Assembly: GCF_002277895.1 (NCBI RefSeq)
Contig: NZ_CP023000.1
Location: 1,426,001-1,490,000, forward strand
DNA length: 64,000 nucleotides
Reading direction: 5' to 3'
Source: Rhizobium sp. 11515TR
Lineage (GTDB): Bacteria; Pseudomonadota; Alphaproteobacteria; Rhizobiales; Rhizobiaceae
Part shown: positions 21,626-59,940 of the stretch, piece after piece
How positions within the stretch are numbered: the first letter of the stretch is position 1
Layout of the letters: the number at the start of each line of letters is the position of its first letter
The notes under the pieces: generated by a model
Databases searched by the model: none
What the model was told of the DNA's origin: nothing
What the model saw: the letters and a program-made list of their open reading frames with translations, nothing else
Program-made: the position numbers and the translations under genes

Positions 21626-22144
21626 TTAGTGGATCGAGGCGGCACCACGTATCGAATTCTCTCCGAGGATTTTAACCAATGTCGCGCGTGCGCGTGATAC
21701 GCGGCTTTTAATCGTTCCGATCTCACACCCCGAAAGTCTCGCCGCATCGTCATATGACAAACCATCGACAATCATAAGAAGTGCGTCTCGTTGATATGGG
21801 GGAAGGCGAGCTAAGGCAGAGCGGACGTCAGCCGTATAAATGCAGAGCTGCTGGCGGCCTACTACTGGAATTTCGAAAAGTCCATCATCATTCGAACGAA
21901 GCTGGACTCGTTTTTGGCGCTTGTATTCAGTCATATAAGTGTTTCGCATAATGGTGAATGCCCAGCTCCTGAGCCTGGTTCCCGGAGTGAAGCTGTCGAG
22001 ATGGGCAAGCATTTTGCCCACGGTCTCCTGCGTGAGGTCGTCGACATCGGTCTCGCTAAAAACGAACCGCCGGGCAAAGTTGCGCAAAGCTGGCAGCAGG
22101 GCGACAACTTCGTCCTGCAATGTAGAACATGCGGTTATGAGCAT
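21626..22144 (-). CDS. ECF sigma factor, EcfG (general stress) type
   Basis: 172-residue RNA polymerase sigma factor. Region 2 reads LPALRNFARRFVFSETDVDD then LTQETVGKMLAHLDSF and LRSWAFTIMRNTYMTEYKRQ. Region 4 reads LPPYQRDALLMIVDGLSYDD then GCEIGTIKSRVSRARATL. This is the EcfG pattern, controlled in alphaproteobacteria by NepR and PhyR. Neither partner is in the window, so this may be a second, solitary EcfG paralogue. Start ATG 22144 has AGGAGG 9 bases upstream; longer frames lack this. The ribosome site is inside a perfect hairpin. A GGAAC-N16-CATT box upstream suggests autoregulation. Confidence 0.88.
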   Translation of the reverse strand: MLITACSTLQDEVVALLPALRNFARRFVFSETDVDDLTQETVGKMLAHLDSFTPGTRLRSWAFTIMRNTYMTEYKRQKRVQLRSNDDGLFEIPVVGRQQLCIYTADVRSALARLPPYQRDALLMIVDGLSYDDAARLSGCEIGTIKSRVSRARATLVKILGENSIRGAASIH

Positions 22145-22146
22145 TT

Positions 22147-22168
22147 GATTTATCCTCCTGGATAAATC
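22147..22168 (-). promoter_or_regulatory. Hairpin sequestering the sigma-factor ribosome site
   Basis: Reading the minus strand, GATTTATCC, loop AGGA, GGATAAATC: a perfect 9-bp stem with a tetraloop, ending 2 bases before the start codon. The AGGAGG ribosome site spans the loop and the 3' arm. If the whole hairpin is transcribed it would hide the ribosome site, as in an RNA thermometer or a translational switch. A DNA operator is the alternative. Confidence 0.55.
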
Positions 22169-22171
22169 TGG

Positions 22172-22196
22172 AATGCTTACTCGTCCAGCTTGTTCC
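22172..22196 (-). promoter_or_regulatory. EcfG-like promoter upstream of the sigma gene (GGAAC-N16-CATT)
   Basis: On the minus strand GGAAC (22196-22192), 16 bases, CATT (22175-22172). One mismatch to the CGTT -10 box. Points to autoregulation. The predicted transcription start lies near the outer edge of the ribosome-site hairpin, so how much of that hairpin reaches the RNA is uncertain. Confidence 0.45.
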
Positions 22197-22586
22197 CCTT
22201 TCATATTCTTCCGTACGCAAGCAGACAGAACTATGTTCGAATAGTTACAGATAGCTTGTCCTTCCCGATCACAACTCAGCATTTCTTCCTATCTAGGTTT
22301 GATATCAGTGCAGTGTTTCACAAAAGACATCACACCACTTTCTATAGTTGCAGCTAGAAAGACGATAGGAATCGCCGCAGCATCGATTTTTTCTTGGTGG
22401 TCAATCAGCATCATTTTGCTGACTTGAAAATATGGCAAAGCTGCTTTGCGAACTGTCTTCACGAGATATATTCGACTGTGGCTTTGGTCTTGTTTCGATC
22501 GCAATAGCCGGCCTCATAATTGTCGCTTCATCGACGAATGATCCGAAACTGAAATGAGACGATCGGTAATGTAGGCGGTAATCCGC
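22197..22586. other. Intergenic stretch without a convincing gene
   Basis: About 390 AT-richer bases between the sigma-factor promoter and the next minus-strand gene. A 71-codon minus frame (22289-22504) exists but lacks a ribosome site and recognisable features. Confidence 0.45.
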
Positions 22587-41399: not shown

Positions 41400-41714
41400 T
41401 CATGGTGCGCTCGTGCGGAGTTCGGCGACGGTACATCGGAGTTTCAGATGAGTGGAATTCCCTATATCGAGCTTGTCCCACGGAACGATGTAACTGGTCG
41501 GCCGCTCTGCGAATCCGAAGAGCCGCAGCATGACGCTGCCGATCGTCGTTGCCGACAGTCTTTCGAGCAAGCCAAGAGCTCCGAGGTGATATTCGACAAC
41601 GAAGAAATCTTCCTCCGCAGCTTCCGCTTTGATCTCTTCCAAGCGTGCGATCGGCTTACCATTTAAATCATGGACCTTCATTCCAAGCAGAAGCTCCAGA
41701 TGAATCTCCGTCAT
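41400..41714 (-). CDS. PRC-barrel-like cytoplasmic protein 2 of the Nramp operon
   Basis: 104 residues from ATG 41714 (MTEIHLELLLGMKVHDLNGK), with GGGAGG upstream. The sequence PIARLEEIKAEAAEEDFFVV, EYHLGALGLLERLSATTIGS and SYIVPWDKLDIGNSTHLKL looks like a PRC-barrel-type domain with a VPWDKLD strand. It overlaps the previous gene (ATGA) as the last of four operon genes. Such proteins may regulate or scaffold the transporter; this is inference. Confidence 0.65.
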   Translation of the reverse strand: MTEIHLELLLGMKVHDLNGKPIARLEEIKAEAAEEDFFVVEYHLGALGLLERLSATTIGSVMLRLFGFAERPTSYIVPWDKLDIGNSTHLKLRCTVAELRTSAP

Positions 41715-42076
41715 GACAGCCCTCCCGGGATGCGCCTGAGAATATGTTGCCTCAACCATTCCTGCGTCTGTTCTAGAGGTGTGTCGCTGTCGTCGATATC
41801 AACTTGAATGTCGACGCCCGCATCAGTGATTTTCGACCATGGGATCCGATAGGGGCATCGATCGCGTCCCGCCCGCGCCCGTTGGGAAAGGGCAAGCAGC
41901 CAGCGATATAGGCGTGGGCTCAGCCTTCGCATCAGCGTCAAGTGGCCCATTTCGAGAAAGCTGATCTTGAGCCGGCCGTCGTTTTCGGTCGTAAGCACGA
42001 TCCCGTCGACCTTTCCAATACGAGCCTGTTTGCGATCGACCACCTGCTTATCCAGAATGTCGCGCACAAGATACAT
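41711..42076 (-). CDS. PRC-barrel-like protein 1 of the Nramp operon
   Basis: 121 residues: MYLVRDILDKQVVDRKQARI, GKVDGIVLTTENDGRLKISF, CPYRIPWSKITDAGVDIQVD. The pattern resembles PRC-barrel domains found with MgtE-like and Mg transport systems (RDxLDKQVVDRxxxRxGKVDGIV). It starts one base after the transporter stop and overlaps the next gene by 4 bases, so the three are co-translated. Likely cytoplasmic partner of the transporter. Confidence 0.7.
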   Translation of the reverse strand: MYLVRDILDKQVVDRKQARIGKVDGIVLTTENDGRLKISFLEMGHLTLMRRLSPRLYRWLLALSQRARAGRDRCPYRIPWSKITDAGVDIQVDIDDSDTPLEQTQEWLRQHILRRIPGGLS

Positions 42077-42077
42077 G

Positions 42078-43295
42078 TCAGCCTCCCAGGATTTCCAGAG
42101 GGGTAGTTACAATTGAAAGCACGAAAGCCATCGCAACGATAAAGATGACCGCGGCATTGCTTATCCACCCGTTTCTATGCTTTCCCACATAGGTCGGATC
42201 GTTCATCAGGATAAGGAAGGGAACCACGCCGAACGGCAGGCTGAGAGCTGAGAGGGCCATCGAAAAGATGGTGATCCGAAGCGGATCTACACCGATGACG
42301 ATTGGGATCACGGCAATCATAAGGCAGGCTGTGTAGACGAGGCAAAAAGCGGGATTTTCTTTCGGCTTCATGTTTTCAGACCAATTCCATCCGAAGCCCT
42401 GTGCGACCAGATAGGCCTGTGCCAGGCTCACTTCGAGGGTCGCGCCCAAACATGTAATCCCGAGCGAGATTGCAAAGAGGTAAAGTCCCCATTTTCCAAA
42501 GGCGGGCGTGAGGATCATGGCAATCTGCTCATATCCTTCAATGTCTTCAATCCCGCTAGAGGGATAAATCATTGCAGCCGATACCATGACAGCGGCGGTA
42601 ATGATCGCGCCAAAACTCATGCCAAGGATCGCGATCGCGCGATTGGCGCCAAAGTAACTCTTGTCCCATTCGTCTTCGAGGGCGCCCGAGGAATAGAAGT
42701 AAAAGAGATAGGGAGAAATGACAGCGCCCAATATCCCGACGACGATGAAGCTATAGTGTAGCGGATCTTTACTGGGCAGGGTCGGCAGAAGGCCCTTCGC
42801 AATTTCACCCCATGGCGGATCCATGACGAACACGGCGACGACGAAAGAAAGCGCCAAAAGTCCTAAAGCCGATATGCCATTTTCGATAAGGCCGAATGTG
42901 CCTCGCCAAAGCAGCAACCAGGCCATAAATGTCACCGGCAACGACCACCACGGAAATTTCACTCCGGTCAGGAATTGCAGCGCAAGCGAGATGCCGCCGA
43001 TCTCGGCTGCAAGAACGAGAAGATTGACGACGAAGACTATGGATATAGTCAGAAGAAAAATGTTGGAGCCGAAGCGGTCCCGAATTCCGTCGACAATCGT
43101 ATAATGGCTCGCGATTGCGAAACGCCCCGACATTTCGACGAGAAAAATCACACAGATCGTACCGAGCACAATAGCCCAAAGGGGAGTATAGCCATAGGCT
43201 GCTCCAGCTTGGCTGGAAGTTGCGATATTTCCCGTTTCAAGAAAACCGCCGATGCTTGTGATGATGCCAAGCGATACCTGCAGCAATTTCTTCAA
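42078..43295 (-). CDS. Nramp-like transporter 2 (ETGN/SPY variant)
   Basis: 405 residues, about 11 membrane helices. Helix 1 has IGGFLETGNIATSSQAGAAY (classical DPGN is ETGN here) and helix 6 VGILGAVISPYLFYFYSSGA, with SPY instead of MPH. The acidic residue is moved and the metal-selective methionine is lost, so Mg or another hard cation is a reasonable guess. TTG 43295 overlaps the stop of the lipoprotein gene upstream (TTGA). Two PRC-barrel-like proteins are encoded downstream. Confidence 0.83.
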   Translation of the reverse strand: MKKLLQVSLGIITSIGGFLETGNIATSSQAGAAYGYTPLWAIVLGTICVIFLVEMSGRFAIASHYTIVDGIRDRFGSNIFLLTISIVFVVNLLVLAAEIGGISLALQFLTGVKFPWWSLPVTFMAWLLLWRGTFGLIENGISALGLLALSFVVAVFVMDPPWGEIAKGLLPTLPSKDPLHYSFIVVGILGAVISPYLFYFYSSGALEDEWDKSYFGANRAIAILGMSFGAIITAAVMVSAAMIYPSSGIEDIEGYEQIAMILTPAFGKWGLYLFAISLGITCLGATLEVSLAQAYLVAQGFGWNWSENMKPKENPAFCLVYTACLMIAVIPIVIGVDPLRITIFSMALSALSLPFGVVPFLILMNDPTYVGKHRNGWISNAAVIFIVAMAFVLSIVTTPLEILGG

Positions 43296-45532: not shown

Positions 45533-45633
45533 CGGCAATCCCGACTGATGCCATGGCCGTCGTCACCGGCACAGGCGCTAGGGAACAGAAAAGCTTGTCG
45601 TTGGTTCTTTGTGGGAAATCGAGGATCTTCATC

Positions 45634-48036
45634 ATGGCTACCCAACCGAGAAACGAACCATCGAGAACACCCGGCAAACCCGCAGCAGGTGGATGGGGTT
45701 CTGCAAAGTCGGTGGGTGGCATTCTCCTTCGGGAGCATATTCCGATCGCGGGCCCATCCCTTCTGGCGCATCAGAACAAGCCCGATGGCTACATGTGTGT
45801 CAGTTGTGCGTGGGGCAAGCCTGCCAAGCCTCATCCGTTGGAGTTCTGCGAAAATGGTGCCAAGGCTACCAGTTGGGAAGTTACCAACCGGCGCGCCGAT
45901 CGTGCCTTCTTCGCGGCACATACGCTCGCCGAACTTGAAACCTGGTCCGACCATGATCTCGAGGAACAAGGGCGTCTGACGCATCCCATGCGCTGGGATG
46001 CCGAAAAGGACAAATACGTACCCATAGCCTGGCATGTGGCTTTTGAGGAGATCGGCCGCGAATTGAGGGCGCTGTCCCCAGAGCAGGTTGATTTCTATAC
46101 GTCCGGGCGCGCGTCGCTCGAAACGGCTTACATGTATCAGTTGTTCGCGCGCATATACGGCAGCAATCATTTGCCGGATTCGTCAAACATGTGCCACGAA
46201 AGCACATCCGTCGCCCTGCCGGAAAGCATCGGCGCTTCGATCGGTACGGCGATTCTGTCCGATTTCCAAAATTGCGACTGCATCTTCTATCTTGCGCAGA
46301 ACGTTGGCACGTCCTCGCCGAGAATGCTTCACGACCTGCAGGATGCGGTCAACCGGGGCGTCAAGATCGTCACCTTCAACCCACTTCACGAGCCGGGGCT
46401 GCAGCGTTTCATCAATCCTCAGATGCCCGGTCAGATGCTCACCGGCAAGGAAACGCCGATTTCCTCGGAATACTATCAGGTCAAGAACGGCGGCGATATC
46501 GCCGCGCTTTTCGGTGTGTGCAAGGCGCTCATCGAGGCCGACGATGCTCTGAAGGCATCCGGTAGCAGCAAGGTCGCGGGAAGCGATGCTATACCGGACG
46601 ATCCCTCCGATGCCGGAACGGTCGCCTTTGCCGCAGCGATTGCCGCCGCCGACAAGAAGCATGTCCTTGACCACGATTTCATCCGCCAACATACCGCGGG
46701 CTTCGAGGAGTTCGCGGCCGCGGCGCGGAATTACGATTGGGCCGAGCTGGAGCGTGTCTCGGGCCTGACGCGGGCTCAGATGCAGCAGGCGGCTTCCACC
46801 TATGCCAACTCGAATGCGGTTCTCATGGTTTATGGCATGGGCCTTACGCAGCATGTCATGGGTGTCCAAAACGTACATATGGTCGTCAACCTCGCGCTTC
46901 TGCGCGGCAATATCGGTAAGCCGGGAGCCAATATCTGCGCAGTCCGTGGCCATTCGAATGTTCAGGGCCAGCGCACGGTGGGGATCACGGAAAAGCCGGG
47001 CCTCGTGCCGCTGGACAAGCTGGCTGCACTTTATCAGTTCGAGCCGCCGGAATGGATCGGCCACACCACGGTCGAAACATGCAAAGCGATTCTTGAAGGC
47101 GAGTCGCGGGCGTTCGTCAGCCTCGGCGGAAATTTTCTGCGAGCCATTCCTGAAACCGTTGCAATGGAGAATGCATGGAGGAAGCTGCGCCTGACCGTCC
47201 AGATCGCCACCAAGCTCAATCGCAGCCACGTCATTCATGGCGAAATCGCCTATCTCCTGCCGTGTCTCGGCCGCATCGAAATCGATGAACAGGCGAGCGG
47301 CCCGCAGGCCGTTTCGATGGAAAGCTCGGTTGCGCATTTTCACGGCTCGCGTGGAAGAGCCAAGCCCGCCAGTCCGGAATTGCTTTCCGAGCCAGCAATT
47401 ATCGCCGGGATGGCAAAGGCGACGCTGACCAAGGGTGTGGTGCCATGGGACCGCTGGGTTGCTGACTATTCGACTATTCGCGACGCCATCGAGCAAACCT
47501 ATCCGGAGACGTTCAAGGACTTCAACGAGCGCATGTTCCACCCCGGCGGCATTCCAAGGCCATTGCCCGCGCGGGAGCGCAAATGGGTGACCCCCAACGG
47601 CAAGGCCAATTTCATTACACCTGACCGCCTGTTTCCGGAGTTTTCGCTCGATGCGCAAAGCGACGATGTCCTTCATCTCGCGACGTTGCGTTCTAACGAT
47701 CAGTTCAACACGACGATTTATGGCTTTAGCGACCGCTATCGCGGCATCGAAGGAACCAGGCGGGTCGTCTTCGTCAACACAAACGATATAGGACGTCTGG
47801 GTTTCAGCAATGGCGAGGCCGTCGATCTGGTGACCGCGATCGATCGGGAAACGGAGCGGCGGGTTACAGGGTTCACCATTGTTGCCTATAACATGCCGGA
47901 AGGTTGTTGCTGTGCCTACTACCCGGAAGCCAACCCGCTGTTCCCTTTGAGCCATCATGACGCCAAGGCAAAGACACCCTCCTACAAGCTTTTGCCCGTG
48001 CGCCTTGTCCGCTCTGGCGCTGCTCCCGTTCATTGA
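45634..48036 (+). CDS. Molybdopterin oxidoreductase, formate dehydrogenase-like (YdeP/FDH4 alpha family)
   Basis: 800 residues, cytoplasmic (no Tat signal), Mo/W-bis-MGD enzyme. The N-terminal Fe-S site is GYMCVSCAWGKPAKPHPLEF then CENG. SSNMCHESTSVALPESIGAS supplies a cysteine (with the adjacent His), the position of SeCys/Cys metal ligands in formate dehydrogenases. Cofactor-binding stretches include LRGNIGKPGANICAVRGHSN and MPEGCCCAYYPEANPLFPLS. ATG 45634 (MATQPRNE) after GAGGA. It ends 26 bases before a cytochrome c gene and the caa3 oxidase operon. Formate is the likely donor; other donors are possible. Confidence 0.85.
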   Translation: MATQPRNEPSRTPGKPAAGGWGSAKSVGGILLREHIPIAGPSLLAHQNKPDGYMCVSCAWGKPAKPHPLEFCENGAKATSWEVTNRRADRAFFAAHTLAELETWSDHDLEEQGRLTHPMRWDAEKDKYVPIAWHVAFEEIGRELRALSPEQVDFYTSGRASLETAYMYQLFARIYGSNHLPDSSNMCHESTSVALPESIGASIGTAILSDFQNCDCIFYLAQNVGTSSPRMLHDLQDAVNRGVKIVTFNPLHEPGLQRFINPQMPGQMLTGKETPISSEYYQVKNGGDIAALFGVCKALIEADDALKASGSSKVAGSDAIPDDPSDAGTVAFAAAIAAADKKHVLDHDFIRQHTAGFEEFAAAARNYDWAELERVSGLTRAQMQQAASTYANSNAVLMVYGMGLTQHVMGVQNVHMVVNLALLRGNIGKPGANICAVRGHSNVQGQRTVGITEKPGLVPLDKLAALYQFEPPEWIGHTTVETCKAILEGESRAFVSLGGNFLRAIPETVAMENAWRKLRLTVQIATKLNRSHVIHGEIAYLLPCLGRIEIDEQASGPQAVSMESSVAHFHGSRGRAKPASPELLSEPAIIAGMAKATLTKGVVPWDRWVADYSTIRDAIEQTYPETFKDFNERMFHPGGIPRPLPARERKWVTPNGKANFITPDRLFPEFSLDAQSDDVLHLATLRSNDQFNTTIYGFSDRYRGIEGTRRVVFVNTNDIGRLGFSNGEAVDLVTAIDRETERRVTGFTIVAYNMPEGCCCAYYPEANPLFPLSHHDAKAKTPSYKLLPVRLVRSGAAPVH

Positions 48037-48062
48037 AGCCCGAACAGGTTGGAACATCAGCC

Positions 48063-48668
48063 ATGCCGTGGGAGGTAAGTAGAGAATTCTTTGATCGCGC
48101 ATTCATAGCCGTCGCTTTTCTGGTGACTCTCGGCGCGGCCGCGCTCATCGGCGAGGCGCGAGAAGGGCGACAATATCGAACCGATCCCACCGTCGGAGCC
48201 GCCTTGGACGAGCTGCGCCTGATGCCGAACGGTATCAGTGGCACTCCGCCGGAAATCTATTTTGCCCTCGGCAAACCTTATGAGACCACCGCTTACGATC
48301 TCAGCCAGGGCAAACGGCTCTATTCCTGGTTCGGTTGCGGGGCATGCCATGGCGACGGGCGTGGCGGGAGAGGCCCTTCTTTCCTGGATGGCTGGTGGCT
48401 CTATGGTCCGGAGATGGTGTCGATCGCAGCCTCCATCCGCGACGGCCGTCCGCATGGAATGCCGGCTTTTCGCGACAAGATGACGATTGACGAGATCTGG
48501 CAGCTCGCAGGCTACGTCCAGACGATCGGCGCATATAAGGCCAAGATCACCGCGCCGAGCCGCAATGACGACAAGCAGACCCGCCCAGCGGAAAACCGAG
48601 CGCCGGCGGCAATCCTGTTCGACGAAGGCCCTGTCGGACCGAACGCTGTACAGGAGCCGTCCCATTGA
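48063..48668 (+). CDS. Membrane-anchored monoheme cytochrome c
   Basis: 201 residues. N-terminal anchor FFDRAFIAVAFLVTLGAAAL, then one heme site GCGACHGDGRGGRGPSFLDG and the axial methionine likely in RPHGMPAFRDKMT. It would carry electrons between the preceding Mo enzyme and the following caa3 oxidase. ATG 48063 is used; its ribosome site is weak. Its stop overlaps the TTG start of the oxidase subunit II gene. Confidence 0.82.
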   Translation: MPWEVSREFFDRAFIAVAFLVTLGAAALIGEAREGRQYRTDPTVGAALDELRLMPNGISGTPPEIYFALGKPYETTAYDLSQGKRLYSWFGCGACHGDGRGGRGPSFLDGWWLYGPEMVSIAASIRDGRPHGMPAFRDKMTIDEIWQLAGYVQTIGAYKAKITAPSRNDDKQTRPAENRAPAAILFDEGPVGPNAVQEPSH

Positions 48669-49663
48669 AAGCGGGCGCTGCCGTTGTCCTGTTCGTGTCG
48701 GCCATCCTGATTGCAGGATGCAACGGCGCTCAGTCGGCCCTGAATGCTGAGGGAGCCGCGGCTGTTCAGCTCAAGCATCTCATCATCGGGATCGTGGTGG
48801 TCTGCTCTGTCGTATGGGCGCTGGTCATGGTCGTTCTGGTCCTCGCATTGCTGCGAGCCAGGACACCGCGGGAAAGTCCAAGTTCCGAGAGCGAGCGGCG
48901 GATGGGCAAGCTGGTGACGGCGGCTGTCGCGGCGACCGTTGTCATCATCGCCGGTTTGACGATTGCAAGCTTCTATGCAACGCGCGGCCTCGGCATGTCC
49001 GAGGATGCCACTCTCGCGATCAAGGTTCGCGGCCAGCAATGGTGGTGGCAATTCATCTACGATGATGTCGATCCGGCCAAGTCCTTTCAGACGGCCAACG
49101 AGATGCATATCCCGGTCGGCGTGGATATTCGCATCGAGCTCGAAAGCTCGGATGTCATTCATTCCTTCTGGGTACCGAGCCTAGCCGGTAAGCGCGACCT
49201 CATTCCCGGCCGGCAGAACGTCATAACCATACGAGCGGAGCGGCCAGGTGTTTATCGCGGTCAATGCGCGGAATTCTGCGGGCTTCAGCACAGTCACATG
49301 GCACTGTTCGTCATCGCGGAGAACATGGCCGCCTATCAGCGCTGGGCTGCCGCCCAGAGGGCCAGTAGCGTATCGTCGGCCGATCCGGAGGCGACAGCCG
49401 GCAAGGCTCTCTTCATGCGCAAGCCCTGTGCGGCCTGCCATACCATACGCGGAACCGAGGCATCGGGATCGACGGGGCCGGATCTGACGCATGTCGGAAG
49501 TCGCCAGACGATTGCGGCAGGGTTGCTCGACAATACCCGCGGTTCGCTTGCCGCCTGGATTGCCGATCCGCAGACACTGAAACCGGGGAACAACATGCCG
49601 ATGGTTCCGCTCTCCAGTGACGAGTTGCGGCAGCTTTCCGCCTATATGGAAAGCCTCAAATGA
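48665..49663 (+). CDS. ctaC: Cytochrome c oxidase subunit II with fused cytochrome c (caa3 type)
   Basis: 332 residues. Lipobox-like signal SAILIAGCNG, two membrane helices, a CuA domain with ligands in SDVIHSFWVPSLAGKRDLIP and RGQCAEFCGLQHSHMALFVI, and a C-terminal cytochrome c with CAACHTI heme site and the axial NMPMVP. The fusion is characteristic of caa3-type oxidases, which take electrons directly from an attached cytochrome. TTG 48665 is the start, overlapping the previous stop (TTGA). Confidence 0.92.
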   Translation: MKAGAAVVLFVSAILIAGCNGAQSALNAEGAAAVQLKHLIIGIVVVCSVVWALVMVVLVLALLRARTPRESPSSESERRMGKLVTAAVAATVVIIAGLTIASFYATRGLGMSEDATLAIKVRGQQWWWQFIYDDVDPAKSFQTANEMHIPVGVDIRIELESSDVIHSFWVPSLAGKRDLIPGRQNVITIRAERPGVYRGQCAEFCGLQHSHMALFVIAENMAAYQRWAAAQRASSVSSADPEATAGKALFMRKPCAACHTIRGTEASGSTGPDLTHVGSRQTIAAGLLDNTRGSLAAWIADPQTLKPGNNMPMVPLSSDELRQLSAYMESLK

Positions 49664-51573
49664 CGAACGACAACAAACCCGCACAACCGACGGATTTGAT
49701 GTTCGGCGATGACGAGCTCGAACGGCGGCTCGCGCAGACCTGGAGGACACCGGCCGGTGTCTGGGGTGCCCTCACGACAGTCGACCACAAGATCATCGGC
49801 CGCCGTTACATCGTTACTGCATTCGTCTTTCTTGCCTTGGGCGGGTTGCTCGCGCTCGCGATGCGGCTGCAATTGGCGCAGCCGGAGGCACGCTTCATCG
49901 GTCCGGACCGCTACAATCAGATTTTCACCATGCATGGCTCAAACATGATGTTCCTGTTTGCCGTGCCGGTCATGGAAGCCATGGCGGTCTATCTCGTGCC
50001 GCTGATGGTCGGCACCCGCAATATCGCCTTCCCGCGCTTGAATGCCTTTTCCTATTGGATCTATCTGGCTGGCGGTCTGTTGTTATGGATCTCGTTTGCG
50101 CTCGATACTGCGCCCGACGTCGGATGGTTTGCCTACGTGCCCTTGTCTGGACCGCAATATGGTGCGGGCAAGCGCGCCGACCTTTGGGCGCAGATGATCA
50201 CTTTCACGGAAGTTGCGGCTTTGGCCGTTGCGGTGGAAATCGTCGTCACCGTCTTCAAGCAGCGTGCGCCGGGCATGTCGCTCGACCGCATTCCGCTGTT
50301 CGTCTGGTCGATGCTCGTCACGGCCTTCCTCGTCATCATGGCCATGCCGGCGATCATGCTCGCCAGCTCGACGCTGATCCTCGATCGCCTGGTCGGAACA
50401 CATTTCTACAATCCCGCAGAGGGCGGCGATGCACTGCTATGGCAGCACCTGTTCTGGTTCTTCGGCCATCCCGAGGTCTATATCATCTTCCTGCCGGCCG
50501 TCGGCATGGTGTCGACGATAATAGCGACCTTCTCGCGCCGGCCCGTATTTGGTTATCTTCCGCTCGTCATGGCGCTGATCGCCACGGGAATCCTGGCGTT
50601 CGGCCTTTGGGTGCATCACATGTTCGTCGTCGGCCTGCCGAAGCTCGGCGAAAGCTTCTTCACCGCCTCCAGCATGGCGATCGCTATTCCCGCTGGCATC
50701 CAGATATTCTGCTGGCTGGCCACGCTATGGGGTGGACAGCCCGTGCTCAAGACGCCGATGCTGTTTGTCCTCGGCTTCATCGTGACCTTCGTCATAGGCG
50801 GTCTGACGGGGGTGATGGTCGCGTCGGTGCCGTTCGATACTCAGGTACACGATACCTATTTCGTCGTCGCGCATTTCCATTACGTGCTTGTCGGCGGCGC
50901 CGTGTTTCCCTTGCTCGGTGCTATTTATTACTGGTTTCCCAAGATAAGCGGGCGGATGATGAGCGAGACGCTCGGTCGCTGGGCATTCGCGCTGATCTTT
51001 GCCGGCTTCAATCTGACATTCTTTCCCATGCATATTCTCGGGCTCGAGGGCATGCCGCGGCGCATCTACACCTATCAGCCGGAAATGCCCTGGGCCGGGA
51101 TGAATATGTTCGTAAGCTTCAGCGCGCTTATCCTTTCGCTGGGATTCCTCGTTTTTTTCGTCGATGTCATCCGCAGCACTCGGTCCGGGCAGATCGCAGG
51201 CGAAAACCCCTGGGGTGCCTCGACGCTCGAATGGGCGACATCGTCGCCGCCGCCATGCTTCAATTTTCGCCGTATTCCCGTAGTCGGCGCTCGCGATCCG
51301 CTGTGGTCGCAGCCGGATGAACTCACGGTCGCCGGCGGGCTGCGCACTGATCGGCGCGAATTGATCGTCAGCAGCGTCGTCGAGGCACAACCCGAAGCAA
51401 GCGAGTCCTCGCCTCGAAATTCGATCTGGCCGCTCCTGGCGGCTCTCGCCACCACGGTGATGCTGATCTGGTCGATCTTCTCGCCTTGGGCGGTCATTTG
51501 GGGATCGATTCCGATCGGGATCACGTTGACCGGGTGGTTCTGGCCGAAGCAGACACCGGAGGACGAATCATGA
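49660..51573 (+). CDS. ctaD: Cytochrome c oxidase subunit I (caa3 type)
   Basis: 637 residues, about 13-14 membrane helices. It holds heme a, heme a3 and CuB: FTMHGSNMMFLFAVPVMEAM (heme a His), WQHLFWFFGHPEVYIIFLPA (CuB His and cross-linked Tyr), LWVHHMFVVGL and VHDTYFVVAHFHYVLVGGAV (heme ligands). Reduces O2 to water and pumps protons. ATGA overlaps on both sides with subunits II and III. The C-terminus is extended as in caa3 enzymes. Confidence 0.95.
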   Translation: MTNDNKPAQPTDLMFGDDELERRLAQTWRTPAGVWGALTTVDHKIIGRRYIVTAFVFLALGGLLALAMRLQLAQPEARFIGPDRYNQIFTMHGSNMMFLFAVPVMEAMAVYLVPLMVGTRNIAFPRLNAFSYWIYLAGGLLLWISFALDTAPDVGWFAYVPLSGPQYGAGKRADLWAQMITFTEVAALAVAVEIVVTVFKQRAPGMSLDRIPLFVWSMLVTAFLVIMAMPAIMLASSTLILDRLVGTHFYNPAEGGDALLWQHLFWFFGHPEVYIIFLPAVGMVSTIIATFSRRPVFGYLPLVMALIATGILAFGLWVHHMFVVGLPKLGESFFTASSMAIAIPAGIQIFCWLATLWGGQPVLKTPMLFVLGFIVTFVIGGLTGVMVASVPFDTQVHDTYFVVAHFHYVLVGGAVFPLLGAIYYWFPKISGRMMSETLGRWAFALIFAGFNLTFFPMHILGLEGMPRRIYTYQPEMPWAGMNMFVSFSALILSLGFLVFFVDVIRSTRSGQIAGENPWGASTLEWATSSPPPCFNFRRIPVVGARDPLWSQPDELTVAGGLRTDRRELIVSSVVEAQPEASESSPRNSIWPLLAALATTVMLIWSIFSPWAVIWGSIPIGITLTGWFWPKQTPEDES

Positions 51574-52172
51574 AGGAGCGCGTCGTCCTCGACGTTTCAA
51601 GGCTGCCGCCCCACGGCATGGGGAGGGCAAGCCCGACCTGGTGGGGCACCTGCGCCTTCATGCTCATCGAAGGGTCCGGCTTCGCATTGGCGATCGCAGT
51701 CTATTTCTACCTGATGAGCCTCGCCCCGCACTGGCCGATCGACGCGCCGGCGCCCGGCCTCGTTCCCGGCACGACCCTGACCGCGATATTACTCGCGAGC
51801 GTCGTACCCAACATTCTCCTATCCAGATGGGCGCGGCAAAGAGATCTGCGCAAGGTGCGGATCGGGCTTATCGTCATGTCGGTATTCGGGGCGGTGCCGC
51901 TAATCTTGCGCGGTTTCGAATTCGCCGTCCTCAACATACGCTGGGACGATAACGCCTATGGCTCAATCATCTGGACGATGCTGGGGCTTCATACGACCCA
52001 CATCGTCACCGATCTCATCGATACACTGGTACTGACCGGTTTGATGTTTTCGAAGCATGCCGATAATCCGCGCCGCTTCGGCGATGTCGAAGATAATGCC
52101 ATGTACTGGAACTTTGTCGTGGTGGCGTGGATTCCCTTATACGCATGCATTTACTGGGTGCCACGTCTATGA
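51570..52172 (+). CDS. ctaE: Cytochrome c oxidase subunit III
   Basis: 200 residues, about five membrane helices. LEGSGFALAIAVYFYLMSLA-like (seen as MLIEGSGFALAIAVYFYL) and LGLHTTHIVTDLIDTLVLTG match the subunit III family; the protein is shorter than the mitochondrial type, as in caa3 oxidases. ATG 51570 overlaps the subunit I stop; the frame to 51486 is spurious. Confidence 0.88.
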   Translation: MKERVVLDVSRLPPHGMGRASPTWWGTCAFMLIEGSGFALAIAVYFYLMSLAPHWPIDAPAPGLVPGTTLTAILLASVVPNILLSRWARQRDLRKVRIGLIVMSVFGAVPLILRGFEFAVLNIRWDDNAYGSIIWTMLGLHTTHIVTDLIDTLVLTGLMFSKHADNPRRFGDVEDNAMYWNFVVVAWIPLYACIYWVPRL

Positions 52173-52480
52173 TGACCACGGCGGCAAAATATGGCGGTTT
52201 GATCCTTGCCCCGCTTGTATGGGCCGGCAATACCCAGCTTGGCCAGCTCCTCCCCTATGTCGATTGCAGCCGGCATGCGTATTGGTCCGTCCTGACATCT
52301 TCCGTCGCAATTCTGCTTGTGTTGGCGAGCGCGGCGATACCGCAGGCCGGTTCTACGGCGGAGGAGGCGCGAACGGGGCTGTTCCTCCGTCATCTCAGTG
52401 TCCTCGTTGGGCTCGCTTTCGCCTTCGCGCTTTTCCTGCAGGGAGGAGCCGTGTGGCTCTTGGACGTATGCGAGCATTAG
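52169..52480 (+). CDS. Small membrane protein of the caa3 operon
   Basis: 103 residues with three hydrophobic segments: GLILAPLVWAGNTQLGQLLP, SVLTSSVAILLVLASAAIPQ and LVGLAFAFALFLQGGAVWLL. The N-terminus ATGA overlaps the subunit III stop. It may be a small oxidase subunit (subunit IV-like) or an assembly factor; the family is not recognised. Confidence 0.7.
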   Translation: MMTTAAKYGGLILAPLVWAGNTQLGQLLPYVDCSRHAYWSVLTSSVAILLVLASAAIPQAGSTAEEARTGLFLRHLSVLVGLAFAFALFLQGGAVWLLDVCEH

Positions 52481-53364
52481 CCGCCCTCATGATCCTGCTG
52501 TTGACGGGGCGGGAGGCTGCCGCGCATGGCGCGGAAGCCCATCTCTTTCATTCGGTCTGGACGATCGACCCGTGGATCGTGACACCATTAGCGGTCGCGG
52601 CTTTTCTTTACGGCCGAGGCTGCTGGAGGCTGAGGCGACGCGCTCGGACGAGCAGGCCCGTCGTAGCAAAGCGTGCCCTTTGTTGTTGGGCCGGCTGGCT
52701 AACGCTTGCCGGTGCGCTGCTGTCTCCGCTGCACTGGCTCGGAGAGCAGCTTTTTACGTTTCACATGATCGAGCACGAAATCATCATGGCGATCTCCGCT
52801 CCGATGATCGTCATCGCGCGGCCGGCCGGCATGTTTCTCTGGGGACTGCCGGATCGGCTGAGGCGCTGGACGGGGAGGGCGATGAGGCGGAGTTCCGTGC
52901 GGATCGCCTGGCGCTGGCTGAGCGGAGGAACCAATGCCACCCTGTTGCATGCCGTCGCCCTATGGACCTGGCATGCGCCGATCCTGTTCGATGCCGCCGT
53001 CGGCGATGTCACGCTGCATCGCCTCCAGCATGTGAGCTTCTTCGCCACCGCTATTCTATTCTGGTGGTCGATCTTCTGGCGCAGCAATCGCGGCGTGGCG
53101 GCGTGGCATCTGTTCCTAACCATGCTGCACACAGGAGCGCTCGGTGCGCTGATGGCGCTGGCGCCACGCGTCCTTTATGTCGCGCAGACGCATGCTGCGG
53201 AAACATGGGGCCTTACGCCGATCGAGGATCAGCAGCTCGCCGGGATAGTCATGTGGATTCCAGCCGGGACGATTTACGCCGGCGCTGCGCTCGCAATGGC
53301 AGCGCTATGGATAGCAAATGCCGGTAGGGGAGCGGACGATGTTCAGCACATCCGCCCATTATAG
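52453..53364 (+). CDS. ctaG: Cytochrome oxidase assembly protein, caa3-CtaG type
   Basis: About 303 residues with seven membrane helices. The DUF1404/caa3_CtaG-type pattern includes WLGEQLFTFHMIEHEIIMAI, SAPMIVIARPAGMFLWGLPD, LHAVALWTWHAPILFDAAVG and DQQLAGIVMWIPAGTIYAGA, with conserved histidines likely binding copper for CuB insertion. GTG 52453 (GGGAGG upstream) or ATG 52468 starts it; both overlap the previous gene. The frame reaching 52057 lies in other genes. Confidence 0.83.
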   Translation: MALGRMRALAALMILLLTGREAAAHGAEAHLFHSVWTIDPWIVTPLAVAAFLYGRGCWRLRRRARTSRPVVAKRALCCWAGWLTLAGALLSPLHWLGEQLFTFHMIEHEIIMAISAPMIVIARPAGMFLWGLPDRLRRWTGRAMRRSSVRIAWRWLSGGTNATLLHAVALWTWHAPILFDAAVGDVTLHRLQHVSFFATAILFWWSIFWRSNRGVAAWHLFLTMLHTGALGALMALAPRVLYVAQTHAAETWGLTPIEDQQLAGIVMWIPAGTIYAGAALAMAALWIANAGRGADDVQHIRPL

Positions 53365-53758
53365 ATACCGCGGTATCTGGCTGGGTGCGGCAGCCATTGC
53401 AGTACTTTGCACTGTGATCGGCGTAAACTGGGCAAAGACTTCGCAGCAGCGATTGCAGGTCGCGCGCGTGCTGACCGGAGGCGGCGATCCCTCCCGAGCA
53501 CCACCGATCTTTCGTCGGTACGGCTGCACCGGATGCCATGAAATCCCTGGAATCGCCGGTGCGGATGGTCAGGTAGGCGGGACTTTGGTGGGTCTTCAAA
53601 AACGGGTCTACATCGCCGGCGTCGTCAATAATACGGGCGATAATCTCGTTCATTGGATCGTGTCACCGCAGGATTTCTCGCCCAACTCGGCGATGCCGAA
53701 AACAGGGATTTCGCAAGCCGAGGCACGCGATCTCGCCGCCTATCTCTACACTCACTAA
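53339..53758 (+). CDS. Small membrane-anchored cytochrome c
   Basis: 139 residues from ATG 53339, overlapping the ctaG end by 26 bases, with GGGGAG upstream. Anchor GIWLGAAAIAVLCTVIGVNW, heme site YGCTGCHEIPGIAGADGQVG, axial Met probably NSAMPKTG. Last gene of the caa3 operon; likely an electron carrier. It ends 6 bases from a convergent cytochrome gene. Confidence 0.82.
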   Translation: MFSTSAHYRYRGIWLGAAAIAVLCTVIGVNWAKTSQQRLQVARVLTGGGDPSRAPPIFRRYGCTGCHEIPGIAGADGQVGGTLVGLQKRVYIAGVVNNTGDNLVHWIVSPQDFSPNSAMPKTGISQAEARDLAAYLYTH

Positions 53759-53764
53759 TCCCAT

Positions 53765-54670
53765 TTAAGGATGCGGCGTCGGTCGAGGAGGCAGGCTCTT
53801 GATGTAGCGCGCGATGGCATCGCGATCGCTCTGCGGCAGCATCGCCATGTTGGTGACGACCTCGGCCATGGACGAGCCGACGCGGCCATGATTCGGCGTA
53901 TTGCCGCTCTTCAGCATTTCCGCGATGTCGGCTTCGGACCAATTTCCGATCCGGCTCGGCGTGATATTGGGAACGAAGCCCGTGTCTTCAGGATCGGTGC
54001 CGCCGGCAAACCGTGTTTCGGGCTTTATCGCACCGAACATATTGCGCGATGAGTGACATTCTGCACAGTGGCCCAGGGTCTCGACCAGATAGCGGCCACG
54101 AGCCACGGCAGGATCGGTGCTGGCGGGTCCTTGCGTCTGCCCTTCATGGAAGAACAGCAATTTCCAAAAACCCAGCAGGCGGCGCATGCGGAATGGGAAG
54201 AACAGATCATGCGCGGGGGGGCGGCCGGAAACCGGAGCCAATGTCCTCAGATAGGCCCTTAGATCGCTGATGTCCTCGAGCCGCATGCCCGTATAGCTGG
54301 GATAGGGAAATACCGGATAGTAGTGCTGATGTCGCGGCGAAACACCGCCAATCAAGGCGTTAGCGAGATCGACGGTGCTCCATTTTCCGATGCCATCAAC
54401 GGGATCGGATGAAATATTGGGTGCACGAAATGTGCCGAAAGGCGATGCAAGTGCGAGACCGCCGCCCAATTTCAGACGGTCCTTCTGGCCTGGGGTGGCG
54501 TGGCAGGACGCGCAGTCGCCGGCGGCGAATATAAGCTGGCCCCGCACCGGATCGCCGTTGTCTTGAAGGCGAGGATCACCGGCTGCAAAAGGCATGGCAG
54601 GGTCCGTCACGAACCAGATCACAGGGACGGCCAGCAAGGCGGCCAGGCACAGCCAAATCAGAATGCGCAT
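53765..54670 (-). CDS. Diheme cytochrome c
   Basis: About 301 residues. ATG 54670 (MRILIWLCLAALLAVPVIWF) begins the signal anchor; GTG 54691 is an upstream alternative. Two heme sites, AAGDCASCHATPGQKDRLKL and LGHCAECHSSRNMFGAIKPE, match the cytochrome subunits of alcohol/aldehyde and gluconate dehydrogenases. It has no dehydrogenase neighbour, so it may hand electrons to the caa3 enzyme or a quinol route. An EcfG-like promoter (54719-54743) lies upstream. Confidence 0.83.
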   Translation of the reverse strand: MRILIWLCLAALLAVPVIWFVTDPAMPFAAGDPRLQDNGDPVRGQLIFAAGDCASCHATPGQKDRLKLGGGLALASPFGTFRAPNISSDPVDGIGKWSTVDLANALIGGVSPRHQHYYPVFPYPSYTGMRLEDISDLRAYLRTLAPVSGRPPAHDLFFPFRMRRLLGFWKLLFFHEGQTQGPASTDPAVARGRYLVETLGHCAECHSSRNMFGAIKPETRFAGGTDPEDTGFVPNITPSRIGNWSEADIAEMLKSGNTPNHGRVGSSMAEVVTNMAMLPQSDRDAIARYIKSLPPRPTPHP

Positions 54671-54718
54671 GGTTCTATCGACCAATTCCACGGAGCGCGA
54701 AAGATCGTGCTCTCGTAA

Positions 54719-54743
54719 AACTGCCCATCGGACTATCCGTTCC
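54719..54743 (-). promoter_or_regulatory. EcfG-like promoter for diheme cytochrome c (GGAAC-N16-AGTT)
   Basis: On the minus strand GGAAC (54743-54739), 16 bases, AGTT (54722-54719). One mismatch in the -10 box; about 40 bases before the cytochrome start. Confidence 0.5.
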
Positions 54744-56250: not shown

Positions 56251-56275
56251 GGAACAATGCCTGACGTTGCAAGTT
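56251..56275 (+). promoter_or_regulatory. EcfG-like promoter for the cyo operon (GGAAC-N16-AGTT)
   Basis: GGAAC (56251-56255), 16 bases, AGTT (56272-56275), 31 bases before cyoA. One mismatch. If used, quinol oxidase is part of the stress regulon. Confidence 0.45.
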
Positions 56276-56306
56276 CGGTGAGCCGCAACGGAGAGGACGA
56301 TCCAGA

Positions 56307-57236
56307 ATGAGCGGCTTGGAAAATCCAAAATCGGCATCCGCTCGCATATGGCGCAGCACAGCTTTTGGCCTGTTGAGTTTTGGCCTCTCCTCATGTTCCC
56401 TAGCGGTATTGAATCCGGTTGGTCCCGTGGGCGCCGGTGATGCTGCAATTCTGATCAACGCGACCGTAATCATGCTTGCCATCGTGGTTCCGACCATCCT
56501 GCTGGCGTTCTGGATGGCATGGCGTTATCGCGCCTCGAATCCCCGAGCGGAATATCTTCCGTATTGGTCCTATTCCGGACGGATCGAGGCGGTCGTCTGG
56601 TCAATTCCGATCCTGACGATCATGTTCATCGGCGGCCTGATCTGGATCGGGTCGCACAGGCTCGACCCGTTCAGGCCGCTATCGTCGAGCAAGCCGCCTG
56701 TCGAGGTGCAGGTCGTATCGCTCGATTGGAAATGGCTTTTCATCTATCCGAAAAACGGGATTGCTACCGTCAATCAGGTCGTGATTCCGACCGGCACGCC
56801 GGTGCACTTTTCGATCACGTCTGCAAGTGTTTTCAACGCGTTCTTCGTGCCTCGGCTTGGATCGATGATCTACGCCATGCCTGGCATGATCTCGCAACTG
56901 CACCTCCAGTCGGATGAATCCGCTCGCCTGCGGGGCATATCCGCCCAATTTTCCGGTGACGGTTTCTCGGACATGCAGTTCGAGGTCAAAAGCGTCCCGG
57001 ATGCCGAGTTTGAAACCTGGATGAAGAGCGCTCAGGCAACCGATCTTCCCCTCGATCGGGATGTCTATGGCAAGCTCTTACAGCAGAGCGAGCGCGTCCA
57101 GCCTGCGACCTACCGCTTGGCGGATCCCGAGCTTTTCAATGCCATCGTTCAACAGACGATTCCGCCAGGCCCCGGTCCAGAGGCCGAGTCCCGACAACAT
57201 GCGGGTCGCGAGACTTCCACCGGGGGAAAGGATTGA
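56307..57236 (+). CDS. cyoA: Cytochrome bo3 quinol oxidase subunit II
   Basis: 309 residues. Lipobox-like signal [20 protein letters not shown], two membrane helices ([40 protein letters not shown]), then a cupredoxin domain with [20 protein letters not shown]. The CuA ligands are absent, as expected for quinol oxidases. First gene of cyoABCD; cyoB starts 2 bases after the stop. Confidence 0.93.
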
Positions 57237-57238
57237 AC

Positions 57239-59251
57239 ATGTTGGGAAAACTCGGGCTTTCGGCGATTCCCTTGTCTCAGCCGATCCCGCTGATCACATC
57301 CATCGCCGTTATCCTCATCGCAGCTGCGGTCTTGATTCTGGTCACCGTAAGAAGATGGTGGCCCTATTTGTGGCGAGAGTGGATCACAAGCGTCGATCAC
57401 AAGCGTATCGGCATCATGTATTGTCTGCTCGGTGTCGTCATGCTCATCCGCGGCTTTGCCGATGCTATCATGATGCGCACCCAGCAGGCAGTCGCGATCG
57501 ATGCCCCCGGTTATTTGCCGCCAGAACATTATAATCAGATCTTCACCGCGCATGGAACGATCATGATCCTGTTCGGCGCCATGCCGCTAGTGCTGGGATT
57601 CATGAATTTCCTCGTGCCGCTGCAGCTTGGCGTCCGCGACGTTGCCTTCCCGACATTCAACTCGGTTGGGTTCTGGCTGACCGCCAGCGGCGCGCTCCTC
57701 GTCAATGTGTCGCTCTTCATCGGCGAGTTCGCCCGCACCGGATGGCTGCCATACCCGCCCCTCAGCGAGACGAGCTATACGCCAGGCGTGGGCGTCGACT
57801 ACTATCTTTGGGCCGTGCAGATTTCCGGCATCGGAACCCTGATAACCGGTATCAATATCGTCACGACGATATTGAAAATGCGGTGCCGGGGCATGAGCTA
57901 TCTCCGAATGCCGGTCTTTTGCTGGACCGCGCTAGCTTCTTGTCTGCTGATTGTGGCAGCCTTCCCGATCCTGACGGCAACGCTCGCGATGCTGACGCTC
58001 GATCGCTATGTCGGATGGCATTATTTCACAAATACGGCGGGCGGAAATCCGATGATGTTTGTGAACCTGATATGGGCGTGGGGTCATCCGGAAGTCTACA
58101 TCCTCGTCCTGCCTGCCTTCGGCATCTTTTCCGAAGTCTTTTCGACCTTTTCCGGCAAGCCGCTATTTGGCTACCGCTCCATGGTCGCGGCGACGATGTT
58201 CATTTGCATCGTTTCGATGCTGGTATGGCTGCACCACTTCTTCACAATGGGGGCCGGCGCCGCGGTCAACACCTTCTTCGGCATCTCCTCCAGCATCATT
58301 GCCGTCGGCACCGGCGTCAAAATCTACAACTGGATCTTTACGATGTATGGCGGAAGGGTTCGTTTCGAAGTGCCGATGCTTTGGTCAATGGGCTTCATCT
58401 TCACCTTCATCATAGGCGGGTTGACAGGTGTCCTGCTCGCCATACCACCAGCGGACTTCCTGACGCATAATTCCATGTTTCTGGTGGCGCATTTTCACAA
58501 TGTCATCATTGGTGGCGTCGTGTTCGGCGTTTTCGCGGGCATGGAATTCTGGTTTCCGAAAGCATTCGGTTTCCGGCTTCACGCAGGGTGGGGCAAAGCG
58601 GCTTTCTGGCTCGCCTTCTTGGGGTTTTGGGTAACCTTCACGCCTCTTTACGTTCTCGGACTTGATGGGATGACACGGCGGTTGCAGCACATCGACGTTC
58701 CCGAATGGGCGCCCTGGCTTTATGTCTCCGCCGCCGGTGTCGGCATTCTTGTCCTGGGGGTCATCGCGCAGGTCATTCAACTGGTGGTCAGCATTCGCGA
58801 ACGGGAAAAGCTGCGGGATATTACCGGAGACCCCTGGGATGGTCGTTCTCTTGAATGGGCAACCCCGTCACCGCCGCCGTTTTTCAACTTCGCCGTCATG
58901 CCGAATGTCGAGGGTGAGGAGGCCTATTGGGGTATCAAACTTCGCGCCGTGGAATCACAGCAACTGTCGCCCGAACCGGATTATGAGCCGATCGAGATGC
59001 CGGTGAACAGTCCGGTCGGCATCTATACGGCCTTTTTCGCCACGGTCTTCGGTTTCGCGATGATCTGGTACATCTGGTGGCTCGCTATCGTGGCGCTCGT
59101 GGCGGCCTTCATCGGCTTCGTGGTCTTCGCATGGCGCGACGTTCATGAATTCGAGGTTTCTGCCGAAGAGGTCGCGCGCGTCGATCGTGGCCGGCGCTCC
59201 GCTCGCGAGGCGATGCTTGCGCGCATGTCCGAACAGGGAGTCTTGCCATGA
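57239..59251 (+). CDS. cyoB: Cytochrome bo3 quinol oxidase subunit I
   Basis: 670 residues, about 15 membrane helices. Heme b, heme o3 and CuB ligands: [51 protein letters not shown] and [20 protein letters not shown]. The long N-terminal extension with [20 protein letters not shown] is typical of CyoB. Oxidises ubiquinol and pumps protons. ATG 57239 after GGGGGAAAGG. Stop overlaps cyoC by 4 bases. Confidence 0.95.
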
Positions 59252-59940
59252 CCGATACCGGCCTGCCGGCGAGCGTCGAAGCCATACGGCGCGTTCGCGA
59301 AGACCCGCATCGTCTGGGCCATCGTGCTCACGGCTCGGGGGAGCCCGCGGCGGGAACTGGCCAGGGCGCTACCGGTCCCGCCGACAAGCGGATTCTTGTC
59401 GGCTACGGTTTCTGGATCTATCTGCTGAGCGACATCATCATTTTCTCGTGCTTTTTCGCCGCATTCGCCGTGCAAAGGGCAGCGACGGCTGGCGGGCCGA
59501 CGATTGCCGATATCGTCGATGTGCAGCGCGTGGGATTCGAGACGGCGGCGCTGCTATTGTCGAGTTACACCTGCATGCTGTCATTTGCGGCGACGAATGC
59601 ACGCAACAGGCTGTGGACGCTCATCTTTCTGTTTCTGACAGGCCTGCTGGGATTGATATTCGTTCTTCTTGAACTGTGGGAATTCGTCGAGCTCGCCGAT
59701 CGCGGCTTCACGCCGCAGCGCAGCGCAATGCTTACTTCCTTCTATGGGCTGGTCGGACTGCATGGCTTGCACGTCACGCTCGGCGGCGTCTGGCTGGCCA
59801 CGATGATGGCCCAGGTTTTCATAAAAGGATTTCGCCGGGAGATCATCCATCGATTGATCTGTTTCAATCTCTTCTGGCATGCACTCGACATCGTCTGGAT
59901 CGGCATTTTCACGATCGTCTATCTGATGGGAGTTCACTGA
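59248..59940 (+). CDS. cyoC: Cytochrome bo3 quinol oxidase subunit III
   Basis: 230 residues, five membrane helices: [80 protein letters not shown], and [20 protein letters not shown]. Matches CyoC. Overlaps cyoB (ATGA) and shares one base with cyoD (TGATG). Confidence 0.93.

Follow-up and report, generated by a model that had tools for sequence, protein, structure and literature searches.

Introduction

The methanol oxidation chain consists of a pyrroloquinoline quinone (PQQ) dehydrogenase, cytochrome cL, and an aa3 oxidase. Distant relatives of the operon described here are similarly arranged, clustering a PQQ dehydrogenase, a MoxJ-like protein, an anchored cytochrome c (cytA), and this oxidase, whereas the operon itself has a cytosolic enzyme resembling formate dehydrogenase (FDH) as its dehydrogenase. 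It occupies positions 45634-53758 on the forward strand of a 64,000-nucleotide window (contig NZ_CP023000.1, positions 1,426,001 to 1,490,000), which is part of a 1.5-Mb contig in the 7.07-Mb, three-contig genome of Rhizobium sp. 11515TR. We assign a probability of about 0.6 to the reading that this operon encodes a stress-induced C1-respiration module, in which an FDH is combined with a caa3-type oxidase and which descends from a PQQ-dehydrogenase unit.

Genetic data tie the FdhF/YdeP oxidoreductases Fdh4A of M. extorquens and PP_0256/PP_4596 of P. putida to the oxidation or tolerance of formate (PMC10308882), and Fdh4 is reported to be NAD-independent (PMC6520949). The molybdenum (Mo) enzyme of the window is of the same FdhF/YdeP kind as FDH4 of Methylorubrum extorquens and the two P. 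putida proteins; unlike it, they are not mentioned in connection with an oxidase operon in the accessible part of PMC10308882. E. coli YdeP, which NCBIfam names an acid-resistance oxidoreductase, belongs to the same family and is 46% identical to the window enzyme, but no oxidase is encoded in the 14 kb surrounding it. The bacteroid-induced fdsA3 of R. leguminosarum was considered as a counterpart of the window's Mo gene and rejected; it is RHLp7098, next to nifB (RHLp7097), and the accessible source shows no tie of fdsA3 to the Mo gene.

On the oxidase side, a putative cytochrome c oxidase operon of R. etli, RHE_PB00063-66, is named but "not specifically addressed" in the accessible text of PMC4274787. 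It is most likely the p42b operon, whose CoxI is 79% identical to that of the window (the locus tags being matched to the place by inference) and whose Mo gene, unlike that of the window, is frameshifted. Rhizobial coxMNOP encodes an aa3-type alternative oxidase; it is listed as an operon separate from RHE_PB00063-66 (PMC4274787), and the stationary-phase rise of R. etli coxPONM seen in the wild type fails to occur in an rsh mutant (PMC3188799). Apart from this naming of the R. etli oxidase operon, no study of this FDH-oxidase operon was found in the literature searched, outside which most subscription papers lie.

Organization and Distribution of the Operon

Eight genes run in one direction from 45634 to 53758. 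The first (45634-48036) encodes an 800-residue FdhF/YdeP-family oxidoreductase, predicted to bind Mo through bis-molybdopterin guanine dinucleotide (bis-MGD), which scores far above the TIGR01701 cut-off (1071 versus 582 bits). A gap of 26 bases separates it from the ATG of cytA (48063-48668), a monoheme cytochrome c with an N-terminal membrane anchor (hydrophobic from about residue 14), a CXXCH motif at residue 92, and a weak likeness to cytochrome cL (MoxG; 21.6 bits against TIGR03872, cut-off 148). The next gene, coxB (48665-49663), encodes a subunit II of the caa3 type, with a lipobox, the conserved CuA ligands H166, C201, E203, C205, H209, and M212, and a fused C-terminal heme c domain with CXXCH at 255; it passes its NCBIfam cut-off (170 versus 148 bits). 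CoxI (49660-51573), an A-family heme-copper oxidase subunit, also passes (TIGR02891, 738 versus 671 bits). It is followed by CoxIII (51570-52172; Pfam COX3, 44 bits), a small membrane protein of 103 residues with a PY-x-DC motif and without an NCBIfam family (52169-52480), a CtaG-type caa3 assembly factor (52468-53364), and cytB, an anchored monoheme cytochrome c with a CTGCH motif (53318-53758, the start being 53318 or 53339). The assembly factor passes Pfam PF09678 (Caa3_CtaG) with 164 bits but falls below the NCBIfam CtaG cut-off (45 versus 279).

From cytA onward, the genes overlap by 4 bases at four successive junctions (48665/48668, 49660/49663, 51570/51573, and 52169/52172), and overlaps also occur between the small protein and CtaG and between CtaG and cytB, the pattern expected of a single message. 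An upstream ATG at 45553 would lengthen the Mo open reading frame; 45634 is preferred as the start because 45553 lies upstream of a promoter-like site at 45582-45606.

The Mo enzyme was used as bait in PLSDB, where 58 of the 60 records listed (out of 406) are at least 74% identical; many of them are closely related strains. For the window itself, the nearest plasmid match listed is Rhizobium sp. AB2/73 (93.8% over the region), and the closest named genome loci are those of R. tropici and R. leucaenae. When the positions were compared by eye, with A. pusense and Mesorhizobium sp. 131-3-5 settled separately, the oxidase adjoined the Mo gene in 56 of these 58 listed records. In the two exceptions, Rhizobium sp. 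CB3090 and Mesorhizobium sp. 131-3-5, the oxidase lies about 450 kb away and is absent, respectively.

A search with cytA recovered 42 genome loci, including ones from Rhizobium, Mesorhizobium, Bradyrhizobium, Phyllobacterium, Neorhizobium, and Tardiphaga. A Mo gene directly precedes cytA in 34 of the 42 (tblastn), although one of these is cut by a contig end (locus L095), one is without oxidase matches (L101), and two have the Mo gene in two pieces (L074, L092); one further locus (L087) retains a Mo remnant only, and seven have no Mo gene there. In L092, a gap of ~1 kb also separates two coxI pieces (L092:11822-12837), perhaps an insertion. Mo proteins labeled as oxidase-linked form one clade of 41 rows (SH-like approximate likelihood ratio test, 100), with two unlinked members nested inside, in a tree built by a quick method without bootstrap. 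Relatives of cytA at an E value of 1e-15 occur in 13 of 397 genomes of the order, within which the FDH-oxidase unit is uncommon. These comparisons confirm a real and tightly packed operon at 45634-53758, borne on a plasmid and conserved among root-nodule bacteria.

Active Site and Substrate of the Mo Enzyme

Sec140, His141, and Arg333 are the catalytic residues of E. coli FdhH. They align with C187, H188, and R438 of the window enzyme, all three of which are unchanged across 36 aligned sequences, E. coli YdeP among them, so that the arrangement of Mo/W formate dehydrogenases, a Cys or Sec ligand followed by His, plus an Arg, is present. In Bradyrhizobium barranii, moreover, fdhD heads the oxidase operon, and an FDH gene of 58% identity lies upstream of a diheme cytochrome gene. 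Because the Cys-His-Arg triad is invariant and fdhD occurs in one Bradyrhizobium cluster, formate is the likeliest, best-supported substrate. A structure model of the enzyme (mean predicted local distance difference test score, 49.7) was too poor to decide the type of its N-terminal cluster and was left unused.

A sequence-only reading of the window had already placed the Mo enzyme in the YdeP/FDH4 type, given it a Cys ligand to Mo and no signal peptide, set it 26 bases ahead of a monoheme cytochrome c, and followed this with coxII-cytochrome c, coxI, coxIII, a small protein, CtaG, and another cytochrome c as a caa3-type oxidase. The present comparisons bear out all of these assignments, and the same operon, which that reading suggested looking for in other Rhizobiales, is indeed spread over several genera, among them Mesorhizobium, Bradyrhizobium, and Phyllobacterium.

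A Putative Stress-Type Promoter

The site at 45582-45606 on the forward strand, 27 bases before the Mo start, has the form GGAAC-N17-GTT. Between -400 and +40 of the first gene, this pattern is found in 36 of 44 Mo-first operons, as compared to a mean of 0.35 and a maximum of 4 in shuffled sequences; after removal of similar upstream regions, it is found in 30 of 38, as compared to 0.17. When spacings of 12-22 were counted in 46 Mo loci, 38 sites had a spacing of 17, none had 16 or 18, and all other spacings together gave 9. The same spacing occurs in the EcfG1 motif published for R. etli, GGAAC-N16-CGTT (PMC3892343); the 36 operons agree with EcfG-type promoters in the -35 element, the spacing, and the GTT, but the base ahead of GTT is mostly not the C of that motif. 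The site stands before cytA in 7 rows (L058, L070, L078, L080, L085, L089, L131) of the 16 scored as having no Mo gene upstream, of which 13 are true cases. When Mo precedes cytA, the 350 bases upstream of cytA contain no site with a spacing of 15-18; among 410-base pieces drawn at random from these loci, 758 of 11400 had one.

The operon also has a conserved convergent neighbor, a diheme cytochrome c gene at 53765-54691 on the reverse strand, with a promoter-like site of the same kind at 54719-54743 (reverse strand). N17 sites are found at 24 of 54 such diheme cytochrome loci. With 17 sites at spacings of 15-18, where 5.1 are expected, the window as a whole may represent a stress island on a plasmid. 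Counted over the entire genome, however, the strict pattern shows no enrichment (64 and 50 sites versus 90 and 88 for the reversed control), so single promoter-like sites prove little and the weight rests on conservation. A sigma-70 scan of the region gave promoter-like and terminator-like sites no more numerous than in shuffles.

Candidate regulators are encoded in this genome. The chromosome carries NepR with an extracytoplasmic function (ECF) sigma beside it (C1:3370192), and a further ECF sigma, with a PhyR_sigma2 match over cut-off, lies inside the window at 21626-22282 on the reverse strand; sigmas related to the latter are found at C3:15854 and C2:1543558. Stress-type genes stand near some copies of the operon, encoding an HPII-like catalase (912 bits, cut-off 1102), Ku/LigD, Hsp20, PrkA-YeaH-SpoVR, and a ferritin-like protein. 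Judged from the conserved sites, the operon is very probably stress-controlled, through what looks like a general-stress, EcfG-type promoter.

Another explanation for the linkage is that the genes were carried together by chance on accessory plasmids, and many copies do lie on plasmids in variable surroundings. Under chance carriage, however, the same strand, the same order, a single Mo clade, and a single promoter spacing would be hard to keep over so much divergence, and 36 promoter sites would not be expected where shuffles give 0.35. We consider passive linkage highly improbable.

Origin of the Dehydrogenase

A PQQ alcohol dehydrogenase gene, a MoxJ-like gene, or both lie beside cytA in all eight of its distant relatives (L059-L066); the stretch of L066 begins inside its moxJ, and the PQQ gene of L059 was detected by tblastn. 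The stretches of seven also hold CoxI, at identities of 46-70%, and in L063 and L064 cytA is on the opposite strand. Three of the PQQ genes score 631-642 bits in the methanol/ethanol family (cut-off 480), and one MoxJ-like protein scores 307 bits (cut-off 212). The PQQ enzyme of L061 has a DYD motif, a mark of lanthanide enzymes. GGAAC-N17-GTT precedes the PQQ gene in L060, L062, and L063, as a plain pattern match without a shuffle control.

In the CoxI tree, which was rooted at its midpoint, the PQQ-linked rows form successive outgroups, and all FDH-linked rows are nested as a clade of 55 rows (support 100/98) that includes 11 FDH-less or unassigned rows. Because PQQ or MoxJ genes lie beside cytA in 8/8 distant relatives and the FDH version is nested within these, a dehydrogenase swap in front of the same oxidase is likely, its direction being what we infer from the nesting. 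In G812, one cluster brings together the oxidase, FDH with the diheme cytochrome, and a PQQ-dehydrogenase-like gene; in the genome of Rhizobium sp. 11515TR, nothing passes the cut-off for a PQQ alcohol dehydrogenase. Most simply, a dehydrogenase-cytochrome-oxidase chain would first have gained FDH, and the PQQ enzyme would later have been lost from it in rhizobia. The swap, standing as it does before an oxidase with altered proton channels, would be the most interesting part of the system and is absent from the sequence-only account.

Proton-Channel Residues of the Oxidase

The K-channel Lys and the D-channel Asp (K362 and D132 in R. sphaeroides numbering) are held to be essential for proton uptake. 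The CoxI of the operon has neither of these two residues of canonical proton-pumping A-family oxidases. It was compared with others in 56 close rows (two of them repeats) and four rows at 66-70% identity. In the 56 close rows, the histidines that bind heme and CuB are kept, as are the Tyr and the HPEVY Glu, apart from one gap at the heme a His. The Lys position is Gln in 56/56 close and 4/4 further rows, as in the window, and the Asp position is Asn, again as in the window, in 53/56 (otherwise one His, one Ser, and one gap) and 4/4, or 57/60 overall. These channel columns are also seen against solved actinobacterial enzymes. Helix IV carries Glu at E184 in 60/60 rows and at E193 in 57/60. A further column corresponds to N121, N139 is kept, and S200, one of the two D-channel Ser, is Ser in 48/56 rows and Ala in the window CoxI. 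The four other heme-copper subunits I of this genome keep both Asp and Lys.

A class-wide sample of 30 CoxI from 24 other genomes (25 of 385 genomes have them, our own included) contains Gln in place of Lys in 27/30 and keeps the Asp in 27/30; a PQQ gene (at least 50% identity) is near only 5. The Lys change and the added Glu thus mark a broad alphaproteobacterial branch, and the idea that loss of both channel residues is unique to the operon clade was narrowed accordingly. Among the CoxI compared, the change from Asp to Asn was seen only in the operon CoxI clade and its closest PQQ-linked kin. In L190, L193, L196, L063, and L066, PQQ- or MoxJ-linked CoxI have Trp for the HPEVY Glu and are without the K-channel Lys.

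Since the canonical K-channel Lys and D-channel Asp are gone and two conserved helix IV Glu have been added, the enzyme might be a general-stress oxidase with little or no proton pumping. It would then serve as an overflow valve for electrons, supplied by a cytosolic FDH that replaced a periplasmic alcohol dehydrogenase and whose electrons reach the periplasmic cytochromes by an undescribed route. We judge this proposal to be unlikely. Family-A K- and D-channel variants and K-channel losses are already published, with archaeal sequences treated (PMC8239418); the accessible main text of that paper does not mention rhizobia.

Relation between the Two Halves

The sequence-only reading had further proposed a complete path to O2 without quinone. 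In such direct wiring, the cytosolic Mo enzyme would feed the periplasmic cytochromes and oxidase without quinone or the bc1 complex, through a conduit or after export of the enzyme. The tight operon, kept over about 76% protein identity, speaks for it, as does the PQQ dehydrogenase in the same slot of distant relatives, which would feed cytA directly in the periplasm; in L185, the diheme cytochrome gene lies directly behind the FDH gene, 7 bp apart. However, the window Mo protein has no twin-arginine translocation (Tat) motif and no hydrophobic N-terminus, a loose RR match occurring in 2 of 72 family rows, and no transmembrane electron conduit is recognizable among the operon genes.

In addition, each half has been lost alone. 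R. tropici L070 has no Mo gene at the operon place (the rest of its genome was not searched) and keeps the promoter-like site and matches to every oxidase gene; the Mo remnant of L087 and the frameshifted Mo gene in the R. etli CFN42 record were noted above. Altogether, the position directly upstream lacks a Mo gene in 13 oxidase loci, of which three (L058, L097, L137) carry FDH elsewhere in the cluster. Conversely, the Mo gene is present without an oxidase nearby in L067, L130, and Mesorhizobium L139, in the last beside the diheme cytochrome gene, and L101 has Mo-cytA with no oxidase match beside them. A strict electron wire between the halves is not expected to break so freely. We consider direct wiring quite unlikely; the earlier assignments of enzyme type, oxidase type, layout, distribution, and lack of signal peptide stand, and the complete quinone-free path is not supported. 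The stress-type promoter, the kinship with PQQ-dehydrogenase units, and the changed proton-channel residues were beyond what a sequence-only reading could reveal.

The independent losses of either half also fit co-regulation alone, under which the Mo enzyme would detoxify formate or aid in acid stress as a YdeP-like protein and share just a stress promoter with the oxidase. The common EcfG-type promoter and the stress-type genes near some copies point the same way. This account is harder to reconcile with other layouts in which FDH belongs to the oxidase cluster, namely, those of B. stylosanthis (L097), G317 (L058), and G812 (L185). The FDH genes of L058 and L097 lie outside the 41-row clade and yet, like fdhD, are linked to the same oxidase; those of L137 and L185 are also oxidase-linked in other layouts and are absent from the tree of that clade. 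Such linkage presumably arose by separate linkage or by replacement. The alcohol dehydrogenase that occupies the slot in distant relatives argues against co-regulation alone as well, and we regard it as possible but doubtful.

Neighboring Genes

A cyoABC-like quinol oxidase operon lies 1.6 kb downstream (56251-59940, forward strand) with its own GGAAC-N17-GTT site directly upstream, so that two oxidase operons with stress-type sites stand side by side in the window. On the other flank, an Nramp-type transporter gene and a small gene that matches no Pfam family (41711-43295, reverse strand) are both near the operon in 10 of 61 compared stretches. Metallophosphatase and nucleotidyltransferase-like genes upstream, preceded by a site at 43927, adjoin the operon in just two of the cytA-bait loci compared, L070 and L071. 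A Zn alcohol dehydrogenase near some loci was rejected as a glutathione-independent formaldehyde dehydrogenase (183 bits versus a cut-off of 637).

Proposed Mechanism and Implications

Our comparisons allow a working scheme for the C1-respiration module. A sigma factor of the EcfG type, part of the general stress response of alphaproteobacteria, would read one message from 45582, encoding the cytosolic FDH, two anchored cytochromes c, and, between these, the caa3-type oxidase and the factor for its assembly; the convergent diheme cytochrome gene would be read from a similar site in front of it. The FDH, its bis-MGD cofactor sulfurated by the single chromosomal FdhD, the only one in this genome, would oxidize formate in the cytosol. 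Its electrons would pass to a shared carrier not encoded in the operon (NAD, quinone, or an unknown protein) and on to the bc1 complex, whose Rieske protein this genome encodes, and the periplasmic cytochromes. CytA and cytB would then hand them to the heme c and CuA of CoxB and so to O2. In the ancestral unit, a periplasmic PQQ alcohol dehydrogenase would have fed cytA directly, with FDH replacing it in rhizobia.

Several observations weigh against this scheme. The N-terminal cluster of the Mo enzyme has three invariant Cys (C55, C58, C72) where FdhH has four, short of the four Cys of a [4Fe-4S] cluster; a non-Cys ligand or a [3Fe-4S] cluster is possible. E. coli YdeP, of the same family, is tied to acid stress and not to proven formate oxidation. 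The N17 site is absent from 8 of 44 Mo-first rows and from 9 of 16 rows without Mo upstream, and where it is present, A or G precedes GTT in 35 of 38 sites in place of the C of the published motif, so another sigma, which may be a distinct paralogue, may be the reader. The accessible main text of the R. etli EcfG paper does not mention cytochrome, oxidase, or formate (PMC3892343). As to the swap, the CoxI tree has a midpoint root and drew a long-branch warning from the tree tool, one outgroup fork also holds the second oxidase of L134, a row whose stretch lacks a PQQ gene, and the PQQ-like protein of G812 is under its family cut-off (443.5 versus 480 bits).

If the scheme holds, the operon brings the oxidation of formate, together with an alternative terminal oxidase, under what appears to be the general stress response of alphaproteobacteria. 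Whether the halves cooperate can be tested in natural variants that have just one of them, such as R. tropici L070 and Mesorhizobium L139. The oxidase branch is a set of natural variants of proton-uptake residues, in which the way that such enzymes take up protons becomes testable. The apparent exchange of a PQQ alcohol dehydrogenase for FDH before the same oxidase would offer an example, open to testing, of a respiratory chain remodeled for use under stress.

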